Part shown: positions 6,185-14,240 of the stretch, piece by piece
How positions within the stretch are numbered: position 1 is the stretch's first letter
Layout of the letters: the number at the start of each line of letters is the position of its first letter
Assembly (NCBI GenBank): GCA_016928125.1
Contig: JAFGLK010000293.1
Location: 1 to 23,116 of the forward strand
Direction: 5' to 3'
DNA length: 23,116 nucleotides
From: Anaerolineae bacterium
Lineage (GTDB): Bacteria > Chloroflexota > Anaerolineae > UBA1429
Notes under the pieces: generated by a model
Seen by the model: only the letters and a program-made list of their open reading frames with translations
The model's database searches: none
What the model was told of the DNA's origin: nothing
Made by a program: the position numbers and the translations under genes

Positions 6185-7450
6185 ATGTTCTTTGATGAAG
6201 CCGAGATCACGGTCCGAGCAGGCGCCGGTGGCGATGGGGCGATGAGTTTCCGGCGCGAGAAGTATATACCCTTTGGGGGACCCGATGGCGGCCACGGCGG
6301 TCGGGGTGGTCATGTCCTGCTGCGGGTCGATTCCCAGATGAACACGCTGGTTGCTTTTGCGCGCCGGCGGCACTTTGCGGCTACCGACGGCGCCCCGGGC
6401 CAGGGGCAGAGGATGCACGGCAAGAACGGTGAGGACCTGTACATTGATGTGCCGGCCGGCACGGTGGTCCGTAATGCCGAGACAGGCGAATTGCTGGGTG
6501 ATCTGGTTGAGGAAGGAGATACGCTGCTCGTGGCTCGCGGCGGGCGAGGTGGGCGTGGCAATGACTTTTTCAAGTCGCCCACGTTGCAGACGCCGCGCTT
6601 TGCTGAGCTGGGGCAGCCCGGGGAAGAGCTCACGCTCGAGCTAGAGTTGCGGCTCATCGCCGATGTGGGGGTGATCGGCAAGCCGAATGCAGGCAAATCG
6701 ACGCTCTTGGCCAGCGTCACGGCGGCCCGCCCCAAGATCGCTGAGTATCCCTTTACGACGCTCAGCCCCAACCTGGGAGTCGTCGAGATCGACAATCGCT
6801 CCTTTGTGATGGCCGATATTCCTGGGTTGATCGAAGGCGCTCACGATGGTGCTGGTCTAGGCATCCAATTCCTGCGCCATATTGAGCGCACACGATTGCT
6901 TGTGCACCTGCTGGATGGCATGAGCACCGATCCTCTGGAGGATCTACAGGCCATCAACCGCGAGCTGACGCTCTACAGCCAGCAGCTGGCGTCCACGCCG
7001 CAGATCGTCGTGCTGACCAAGATGGATCTACCCGACGCCCGGGCGATGTGGGAGCTGTTGCGGGAAGAGGCCGCGGAGGAGGTCGAAGAGTTGCAGGCTA
7101 TCTCGGCCGTCACCCATGAGGGCATCTCCGAGCTGCTGCGGCTCATCGTCCGTCGTTTGGACGCTCTTCCTGCAGAAGAGGAAACGGCGGACACGTTGTA
7201 TACATTTCGGCCGCACAAGGTCCGAGAAAGCCAGACGTTTCAGATCACCAGGGAGGGCGATGCCAGATACCGCCTATCTGGCGCCGAGATCGAGCGCCTG
7301 GCGATCATGACCGACTGGGGCAGCATGGAGGCCATGGAGCGCTTTGAGCGCATCCTCATCTCGCGAGGCATTGCCGACGAACTTGAGCGGGCCGGCGTAT
7401 CGTTGGGCGACACCGTTATGATCGGGGAGATCGAGCTTGAGTGGCGTTAG
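6185..7450 (+). CDS. obgE: GTPase Obg/CgtA
   Basis: A 421-aa protein of the usual three-domain Obg layout. The glycine-rich Obg domain (residues 1-158) includes [17 protein letters not shown] and the repeated G-G-x-G-G turns. The GTPase domain has G1 GKPNAGKST (165-173), switch TT at 191-192, G3 DIPGLIEGA (211-219) and G4 TKMD (278-281). A C-terminal OCT domain follows (about 341-421, starting at YTFRP). Obg binds the 50S ribosomal subunit and takes part in its late assembly and in stress control; it is normally essential. The gene overlaps the possible start of nadD, forming an obgE-nadD pair common in bacteria. Upstream sequence CAGGGTG is a modest ribosome site. Confidence 0.97.
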
Positions 7451-8102
7451 TGAGGGCGTGTGCTTGCGGGAAGCAGCCGAGCCCACGTTGCGCGTCGGGC
7501 TACTCGGCGGGACTTTTGACCCGATCCACATTGGTCATCTGATCATAGCGGAGGAGGCGCGGGTTCGAGTGGGGCTCGACCGCGTCGTGTTTATCCCGGC
7601 GCGCGTATCGCCGCTCAAGCGAGATGGAACGTTCTTCGCGATTGGTGAGCGCTGCGAGATGGTCCGACTGGCCATCGCCGACAATGTCCATTTCGGTCTG
7701 TCGCGTGTCGATATCGATCGTAAGGGACCCTCCTTCACGGTGGATACACTGCGGGCGCTCAAGGCCGAATTCGGGCAGCGCGTCACCCTTTTTTTCATCA
7801 TGGGCATGGATTCCCTGCTGAGCCTGAATCGTTGGCATCGCCCTGATGAGATCATCCGCCTGGCGCGCATCGTAGCGATCAGCCGCCCGGGATTCGAACC
7901 CGATCTGGCGGCGCTCGAAGCCGACGTGCCCGGGATCTCTGCGGCCACCGAGATCATCTCCACGCTCCGGATCGGCATCTCCTCTACGGATATCCGGCGT
8001 CGCATCGTCCAGGGATTGCCCATCCGCTATCAAGTGCCTGCTGCGGTTGAGGCCTACATCGCCACCCATGCGCGCACCGAGAGCGAGAACCGTGCCTCCT
8101 AG
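7437..8102 (+). CDS. nadD: Nicotinate-nucleotide adenylyltransferase
   Basis: A protein of up to 221 aa that makes deamido-NAD from nicotinate mononucleotide and ATP. The nucleotidyltransferase signature [11 protein letters not shown] is at residues 24-34, and the second signature [10 protein letters not shown] is near the C-terminus. [20 protein letters not shown] matches the substrate-binding segment of NadD. The start is uncertain: the TTG at 7437 has GGGGAG seven bases upstream and overlaps obgE by 14 bases; a GTG at 7458 is an alternative. The next gene starts inside its 3' end, so the operon continues. Confidence 0.95.
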
Positions 8103-12641: not shown

Positions 12642-13685
12642 CTACTGAGCGGCGTAGATGTTGATCATGTCCCGCAAGACCGCAGCCGAGGTCGGTACAG
12701 GGCCCTTTTCCTCGATGACTGCGCTGATGATCCCCATGAAATCGGTGTGATACACCACACCCATGTCCCATCGCCCGATGCGCGCCAGCGGATGGCTCTG
12801 ATCAAGGGCAGTCACCTGCACGCTCAAGCTAAAGTCGTCGCCTTCCCTCTCGGCCAAAGCCAGCAGTTTGAGCACCTGGCCTCGGGCCCTGGCGCTCTGC
12901 AGGTCCTCGAGAGTGGTGCGGCGAATGCCCTCCACACGCACATGCTCCAACGTGGTGGGGCGCCGCAACACGCTGTTGGCGATGATGACCAGCTTGTTGG
13001 CGGCATCCCAGCCGTCCACGTCCAAGCTGGGGTCGGGCTCGGCGATACCGGCCTCCTGGGCTCCCTTGAGCGCCTCCTGATAGCTGATCTGCTCCTCCTC
13101 CATGCGCGTGAGGATATAGTTGGTGGTACCGTTAAAGATACCCTCGATACGCTCGACCCCACTGCCAGCCAGGTCGCGCACCCCGATGTTCACCGTGGGC
13201 AAGCCGCCAGCCACGGTGCCGCTGTAGAGCAAGCAGGTCCCAGTTCGCCGGGCTAGATCACTCAGGGCATCAAAGGCCAGCACCAGCGGGCCTTTGTTGG
13301 CCATCACCACGTGCAGACCAGAGCCTAAGGCTGTACGCACGCAACTCAGGCCGGGCTCGCCATCCTGGAGATTGGTGGGCGACGCATCCACAAAGAGCTC
13401 AGCTTTGGTCGAGAGGATCATCTCCAGGCCGGTCATGCCCGGCCGCCCCAGCATCGGGTAGCGGCTCACGCTCTGGCCGGCGAGCTTGAGCGCGCGCACC
13501 CGCACGGGATCCAGTCCGTTGGCGTCGATGGCGGCACCCTGTGAATCGGCCGCCCCCACCAACACAAAGCGCAGGCCATAGTCGCGGGCTATCTGTGCCT
13601 CGCGATGTGTGTATACATCCAGCAGGTTATGACCGATGTTTCCCAGACCTATGAGCAGATAGGGGATCTCTCTCGGCTCTGACAT
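12642..13685 (-). CDS. hom: Homoserine dehydrogenase
   Basis: A 347-aa NAD(P)-dependent oxidoreductase that reduces aspartate semialdehyde to homoserine in threonine/methionine synthesis. The nucleotide-binding loop GLGNIGHN is at residues 13-20, NKGPL (130-134) follows the Rossmann part, and SGTVAGGLPTVN and GIFNGTTNYILTRM are family motifs. The signature AEPDPSLDVDGWDAANK (215-231) carries the substrate Asp and Lys. The protein ends without the ACT regulatory domain found in longer bacterial forms, so threonine feedback through that domain is not expected. The ATG at 13685 has GGAGGAGG ten bases upstream. The gene is probably monocistronic, with the selW-like terminator just upstream. Confidence 0.93.
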   Translation of the reverse strand: MSEPREIPYLLIGLGNIGHNLLDVYTHREAQIARDYGLRFVLVGAADSQGAAIDANGLDPVRVRALKLAGQSVSRYPMLGRPGMTGLEMILSTKAELFVDASPTNLQDGEPGLSCVRTALGSGLHVVMANKGPLVLAFDALSDLARRTGTCLLYSGTVAGGLPTVNIGVRDLAGSGVERIEGIFNGTTNYILTRMEEEQISYQEALKGAQEAGIAEPDPSLDVDGWDAANKLVIIANSVLRRPTTLEHVRVEGIRRTTLEDLQSARARGQVLKLLALAEREGDDFSLSVQVTALDQSHPLARIGRWDMGVVYHTDFMGIISAVIEEKGPVPTSAAVLRDMINIYAAQ

Positions 13686-13766
13686 GCGTGCCTGACCTCC
13701 TCCATCGGCCCCCATCGTGACCGATGCCTCTTTTCCCGGTGATGATCAGCAAGCGAACGAGAGTCT

Positions 13767-13810: not shown

Positions 13811-13848
13811 AAAGAAAAAAGACGACACCTTGCGCCGAGATGTCGTCT
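13811..13848 (-). terminator. Intrinsic terminator after the SelW-like gene
   Basis: On the minus strand AGACGACA (13848-13841) pairs with TGTCGTCT (13827-13820) around a 13-base loop, and the RNA continues with TTTTTCTTTT. It starts 24 bases after the stop codon of the SelW-like gene. Confidence 0.85.
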
Positions 13849-13871
13849 CTGTCACTGCAATCGGTTGGACC

Positions 13872-14111
13872 CTAGAGCTTGGCGTTCAGATCGCTGAGCA
13901 CACTGCCTTCGCTGGGGAAACGCCCTGTGGCGAGTTTGGAGTAGACCCCCTCGCCGTCGGCGGTGATCTCAAAAGCCCCCCCGCTGGAGGGGATCAACGC
14001 CACTTCTCCAACACCCGTCTTGAACCTATCCAGTATCTTGGTCGCCAGACTGGCGGCCCGAGGCAGATAGCCTCAAGAGGTGCAGTAGCGGATCTCGATC
14101 CTTGCGCTCAT
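13872..14111 (-). CDS. SelW/Rdx-type selenoprotein, UGA read as selenocysteine
   Basis: An 80-codon frame from ATG 14111 to TAG 13872, interrupted only by TGA at 14075-14073 (codon 13). Read with selenocysteine it gives a 79-aa Rdx-family protein: IEIRY-C10-T-S-U13-GYLPRA, then ASLATKILDRF, VALIPSSGGAFEI, DGEGVYSK and GRFPSEGSVL. Every block matches the thioredoxin-like Rdx/SelW family, whose redox motif is C-x-x-C or C-x-x-U. The TGA falls exactly at the second redox position. A hairpin meeting bacterial SECIS criteria lies just downstream. The start has AAGGA seven bases upstream. The gene has its own promoter and terminator. Known members are thought to act in thiol redox control. A broken CxxC gene is the alternative, but the reading frame before and after is intact and conserved. 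Confidence 0.83.
14040..14058 (-). promoter_or_regulatory. Candidate bacterial SECIS hairpin
   Basis: On the minus strand GGCCGCCA (14058-14051) folds onto TGGCGACC (14047-14040), with a single C-A mismatch and the apical loop GUC (14050-14048). The loop begins 22 bases after the UGA and its first base is G. Both fit the published bacterial SECIS pattern as I know it: a small loop with an early G, about 16-37 bases from the UGA. A second small hairpin (GAGGC-TATCT-GCCTC, 14074-14060) includes part of the UGA itself. Confidence 0.65.
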
Positions 14112-14175
14112 GCTGCTTTCCTTTCTTTGCTTCCCTGAATGACTGAACGGAGCCTGCCACTCGCCATAGAGTGTG

Positions 14176-14204
14176 ATTATAATGAGGTTCGGACAAGAGC
14201 ACAA
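14176..14204 (-). promoter_or_regulatory. Promoter of the SelW-like gene
   Basis: On the minus strand TTGTGC (14199-14204), 17-base spacer, TATAAT (14176-14181). The same -35/-10 pair occurs upstream of the 50-aa peptide gene at 12392-12420. The -10 is part of the self-complementary ATTATAAT, so the opposite strand also carries a TATAAT. Confidence 0.65.
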
Positions 14205-14240
14205 AAAGGTTGCTCATACAATGAACAATGAACCAGGTGC

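Follow-up and report, generated by a model that had tools for sequence, protein, structure and literature searches.

In the GOS marine survey, the SelW-like family, whose members carry selenocysteine (Sec) at the second position of a CxxU motif, is given as the largest selenoprotein family, with 427 Sec-containing and 56 Cys-containing homologues (PMC2398784), and a survey from 2021 also names SelW-like proteins first, at 11.3% (PMC9402790). A survey from 2006 reports three selenoproteins in Chloroflexi and notes that, in organisms that use Sec, Cys forms of SelW-like proteins and of a few other families are very few or absent (PMC1794560). Selenocysteine genes have been described in published genomes of Anaerolineales, and thermophila UNI-1 is described there as encoding a Sec elongation factor (PMC4959059). 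In genome bins of sponge symbionts belonging to various phyla, SelA and SelB are reported to occur together in most cases (PMC5649159).

The window analyzed here, a stretch of 23,116 nucleotides from an Anaerolineae bacterium, contains on its minus strand a small gene that almost certainly encodes a bacterial selenoprotein W, with an internal UGA that is read through as selenocysteine. No categorical difference separates it from the SelW-like CxxU bacterial selenoproteins (PF10262/TIGR02174), with which it shares its size, its family profile, and the UGA at the second motif position; the copy described here lies on a Chloroflexota contig. As a member of an established family it is unremarkable; it is a gene of the kind that gene callers miss, and it adds a well-supported selenoprotein to the SelW family. 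The bacterial group to which the contig belongs is already known for its use of selenium. The proposal in the initial annotation that its use of selenoproteins may have gone unrecorded in this organism is not supported, since published work reports selenoproteins from Chloroflexi (PMC1794560) and Sec genes from Anaerolineales (PMC4959059), SelW-like CxxU proteins are reported as a major known family (PMC2398784), and genomes of the sampled class often carry Sec genes whether or not they have SelW. Knowledge of which organisms use selenocysteine is unchanged by this gene. Among the papers listed in literature searches, no title concerned SelW in Chloroflexota, and we make no claim that the gene is unpublished.

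Reading frame and family membership

The selW-like gene occupies positions 13872..14111 (−) and encodes 79 residues followed by a TAG stop codon. Its frame contains a single TGA, at codon 13 (14073..14075, minus strand, read 14075-14073), and no other stop or frameshift, which agrees in frame, codon number, and position with what had been described from the sequence. The TGA lies within the redox motif C10-T-S-U13 near the N terminus, which corresponds to the CxxU motif of Rdx and of the SelT/SelW/SelH family TIGR02174. As the initial annotation had anticipated for standard gene calling, the list of open reading frames of at least 60 residues has nothing in the SelW frame and instead contains two overlapping frames, 13830-14138 (+) and 14026-14217 (−).

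Alignment of the protein to the Pfam family PF10262 (Rdx), which had been suggested as a check, scored 82.9 bits over residues 4-73 (cut-off 22.6, E 1.9e-23), so that the sequences on both sides of the TGA fit the family, and a match that spans the TGA in this way rules out a chance reading frame. TIGR02174 was matched with 69.1 bits against a cut-off of 34.2. For the equivalog NF041051 (SelTWH_Campy) of NCBIfam, the score of 83.7 bits is below the cut-off of 88, and the protein is therefore not placed in that group. Cys-type Rdx proteins with solved structures were also matched by sequence (2fa8, E 1.5e-16; 2obk, E 9.9e-14); they belong to the same family, but their motif is CxxC, whereas that of the window gene is CxxU.

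Conservation of the internal TGA

Related genes were searched in two main samples, the class of genome G528 (396 genomes) and the phylum of genome G304 (301 genomes), which, judging from SelW identities of up to 73%, gene order, and named proteins, probably represent Anaerolineae and Chloroflexota, respectively. In the class sample, 154 of the 396 genomes have a match at E 1e-8 or better, and among the 150 matches listed, 145 contain one TGA and five contain none by our own count, the placement of the TGA having been read in the fetched loci. The ten best matches are 56-73% identical to the window protein over nearly its full length and have one TGA each, the closest relative reaching 73% identity over residues 1-79. 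The 29 best-scoring new loci (L110-L138) were read codon by codon, as the initial annotation had advised for related genomes: in these loci, presumably of Anaerolineae, the same codon is TGA in 27 and the Cys codon TGT in the two others, which are more distant. A conserved in-frame UGA at a site equivalent to cysteine, by which bacterial selenoproteins are recognized, is thus found here.

In the phylum sample, 58 of the 301 genomes match at E 1e-12 or better; 55 of the 59 matches have one TGA, three have no stop, and one (G403) has a TGA together with a TAG, with the TGA placement again read in the fetched loci. This last SelW-like match (G403:C40:2812-3027) is possibly a decayed copy. Two TGA codons and one TAA were also seen inside a match to Obg in genome G342 (L075). 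In a wider draw of 392 genomes, 19 reached E 1e-17 or better; a single TGA is present in 17 of them, and two are stop-free. A scan of genome contigs found two SelW loci, one of them titled Marinimicrobia, while no SelW relative was found in a scan of viral contigs, and the three genomes from the phylum of G260 were uninformative.

Among the relatives of a Marinimicrobia genome, the gene is present in 48 of 61 genomes, and the TGA lies in C-x-x-U in all 49 loci. These Marinimicrobia-type genes (searched in Marinimicrobia bacterium TCS55, bacterium TMED144, and 59 relatives) encode proteins that are 33-52% identical to the window protein, and they have the UGA at the same codon and a hairpin in the same place.

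Pooled over the comparisons of the window gene with ten relatives from the class sample (L110-L119), pN is 0.249 and pS is 0.603, which points to selection on the protein. For codons 1-12, located 5′ of the TGA, the pooled values are 0.213 and 0.518, calculated on only 12 codons, and in the single comparisons with L111 and L116 pN is nearly equal to pS over this stretch.

A SECIS-type hairpin downstream of the UGA

In bacteria, the SECIS is a stem-loop just 3′ of the UGA, and such an element is found in the window gene in the form of a hairpin with a core of four base pairs and a five-nucleotide loop, A-G-U-C-U (14043..14055, −). The core takes up columns 21-33 counting from the U of the UGA, a spacing of 17 nucleotides between UGA and core. 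As folded, the window RNA (G-G-C-C-G-C-C-A-G-U-C-U-G-G-C-G-A-C-C) has two outer G-C pairs in addition (14040..14058, −), which are poorly kept in relatives. The stability of the window hairpin is unremarkable (z −1.30 and −1.74), and a longer stretch of RNA has a different lowest-energy fold around the same core.

The evidence for the hairpin comes from its covariation. On the Chloroflexota side, 48 sequences were aligned, namely the window and 47 loci drawn from the 59 loci L080-L138, leaving out one missed by the search pattern (L091), three Cys loci, and eight repeated 60-nucleotide stretches. In this alignment, 97.4% of the cells of the core are paired, compared with 89.9% in shuffles, and two-sided changes, which occur in all four pairs, number 24, compared with 1.5 in shuffles; neither value was reached in 500 shuffles, a control that is inflated by the relatedness of the sequences. 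The number of further pair types, reached in 34 of the 500 shuffles, is less telling. The outer two pairs are kept in 14 and 9 of the 48 sequences.

In the Marinimicrobia-type alignment, which includes the window and has 43 rows, 42 of them distinct (seven of the 49 loci were missed by the search pattern), the first pair of the core forms in 38 of 41 sequences, with six pair types, and joins mostly the third codon positions of two alanine codons. This same pair is C-G in 46 of the 48 sequences on the Chloroflexota side, in contrast to its variability in the Marinimicrobia-type genomes. The number of further pair types in this second alignment was reached in 23 of 500 shuffles. When the pairing partner was slid by 1-3 columns, paired cells were at most 54.7% on the Chloroflexota side and at most 49.7% in the Marinimicrobia-type alignment, and the covariation score was at most 0.119 and 0.112, respectively, compared with 0.358 and 0.372 unslid. 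Changes at third codon positions and compensated amino acid changes are nevertheless difficult to explain in other ways. The element is best regarded as a putative bacterial SECIS, with predicted binding by SelB.

One pair of the core appears to leave its mark on the protein as well. On the Chloroflexota side, this pair is C-G in 19, U-A in 18, and U-G in 11 of the 48 sequences, and SelW positions 19 and 22 change together along the series C-G, U-G, U-A, with the combinations Val/Thr (17 sequences), Ala/Ala (15), Val/Ala (11), Thr/Val (3), Ile/Met (1), and Thr/Ala (1). We lean toward the view that these two residues evolve together because of the decoding hairpin rather than the protein fold, while direct contact between them within the protein could also account for the pattern. 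If the former is true, the protein sequence of a selenoprotein has been shaped by its decoding RNA.

Selenocysteine machinery in related genomes

SelB, SelA, and tRNA-Sec were searched in 20 class-sample genomes with SelW, the best-scoring ones (G829, which has Cys, was left out), and in 20 genomes that gave no match at 1e-8, taken in the order of the list. SelB is over the cut-off in 19 of the 20 genomes with SelW and in 15 of the 20 without, SelA in 18 and 17, and tRNA-Sec scores above 60 bits in 14 and 16, respectively. The 60-bit line is our own, placed in the gap between scores of 63.1 and 52.0 bits, and was chosen because the 47-bit cut-off also responds in controls such as Caulobacter, Thermus, and Thermotoga, which to our knowledge do not use Sec. 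In the 14 genomes whose SelW is closest to that of the window, SelB was found in 14, SelA in 13, and tRNA-Sec in 11. The closest relative (G811) has SelB and SelA over the cut-off and no tRNA-Sec above 60 bits, its best score being 45.1. Contig numbers in the hundreds suggest that the sampled genomes are fragmented drafts.

As a marker of genomes with SelW, the machinery fails, being about as common in the 20 genomes that lack a SelW match; throughout the class sample, Sec genes occur widely and independently of SelW. Among the 61 Marinimicrobia-type genomes, 50 have SelA and 47 have tRNA-Sec over the cut-off, and a tRNA-Sec of at least 57 bits was found in 40 of the 48 genomes with SelW and in 6 of the 13 without. 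SelB was searched in two of these genomes and was over the cut-off in G002 and not in G001, which has a SelW with TGA.

The proposal of the initial annotation that the TGA is read as Sec in a protein of the SelW family is strongly supported by the TGA of the orthologues, by the covariation of the hairpin, and by the Sec genes found in most of the 20 relatives; the many database relatives that begin only after the UGA fit the same reading. In the organism of the window, the UGA of codon 13 would be decoded by tRNA-Sec and SelB, the latter being recruited through the small intragenic SECIS hairpin whose core starts 17 nucleotides after the UGA. The product would be a small protein of the Rdx family whose redox motif is C-x-x-U, probably a selenol/thiol oxidoreductase. 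The best explanation overall, and one we hold with great confidence, is a selW-like selenoprotein gene on an Anaerolineae-like Chloroflexota contig, the UGA of which is decoded as Sec.

Database proteins and other readings of the UGA

A search of a protein collection with the single sequence found 30 relatives, 25 of which start after the TGA site, while one has tryptophan and four have cysteine there. A search with an alignment found 4,877 relatives, and 101 of the 120 matches listed were new. The alignment query consisted mostly of truncated sequences and is hence biased toward truncated hits, a bias of which the single-sequence query is free. Taken together, 113 of the 131 relatives listed (30 and 101) start at residues 16-34, after the UGA, 14 have tryptophan at the site, and four have cysteine. 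The SelW relatives that bear an organism name (P0011, P0174, P0177, and P0214) are assigned to Chloroflexota, Chloroflexi, or Anaerolineae, and the named ones among the 120 listed relatives of the Obg protein encoded in the window are assigned to these groups or to Anaerolineales, which is the basis for describing the contig as Anaerolineae-like.

The tryptophans raise the question of whether UGA has been reassigned genome-wide in these bacteria, or is read by suppression as some other residue, for instance Trp, Gly, or Cys. The 14 entries (P0028, P0197, P0199, P0205, and ten others) are probably gene calls that translated TGA with genetic code table 4. In the window itself, TGA terminates 11 of 19 other likely genes, hand-picked from the list of open reading frames, which argues against a reassigned code, as do the covarying SECIS-type hairpin that follows the UGA and the presence of SelA, SelB, and tRNA-Sec in most of the related SelW genomes searched. 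This reading is very improbable.

The late starts of the database proteins could be taken to mean that the UGA mainly terminates translation, either as a selenium-responsive switch or as the end of a short leader followed by an independent downstream reading frame. Such starts are also what gene callers give when they take a start codon after a stop, and five database entries match, at every residue except the first, parts of the TGA-bearing genes in L111, L113, and L116, so that entries of this kind can be fragments of UGA-containing genes. The stretch 5′ of the TGA, including the C-x-x-U motif, is moreover kept in relatives. Termination as the main fate of the UGA is accordingly still less probable than reassignment; regulated termination could act as an additional effect beside decoding as Sec.

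Equally improbable is that an ordinary Rdx gene of the Cys type has acquired a nonsense mutation, has become a pseudogene, or was misread in sequencing: cysteine does occupy the site in some distant homologues (four of the 131 database proteins listed and two of the 29 loci) and the G403 gene has a TAG besides its TGA, but the TGA is found at the same codon in nearly all of the presumed Anaerolineae loci and in every Marinimicrobia-type locus, the window gene is otherwise intact, pN is lower than pS, and the hairpin covaries.

With decoding as Sec, the predominance of fragments among the close relatives of the family in the searched collection means that the annotation of this gene in Chloroflexota is often truncated.

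Flanking elements and neighboring genes

A promoter, a ribosome-binding site, and a terminator of its own had been ascribed to the gene. The terminator is consistent with a hairpin followed by a T-run that a scan located 3′ of selW (13818..13850, −), and the ribosome-binding site with an AGGA (14119..14122, −) seen by eye seven nucleotides 5′ of the ATG. The promoter is weakly supported: a possible −10 element, TATAAT (14176..14181, −), was seen by eye and is absent from the promoter scan, the −35 candidate TTGTGC agrees with the consensus at three of six positions, and the scan placed its two promoter-like sites on the plus strand and none on the minus strand.

Elsewhere in the window, a tRNA-Ser(cga) predicted by ARAGORN (7879-7947, −) is probably spurious, as it overlaps a likely coding frame (7437-8102, +) and has no Rfam listing at the gathering score. 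The gene-poor stretches contain five further read-through frames of at least 60 residues with one or two TGA codons, none of which resembles known selenoproteins by eye.

Downstream of selW, the list of open reading frames has a gene (12642..13715, −) that we take to be homoserine dehydrogenase-like. In L110 and L111, which are the closest relatives, the same neighbor lies downstream of selW, and the window copy is 67% identical to that of L110.
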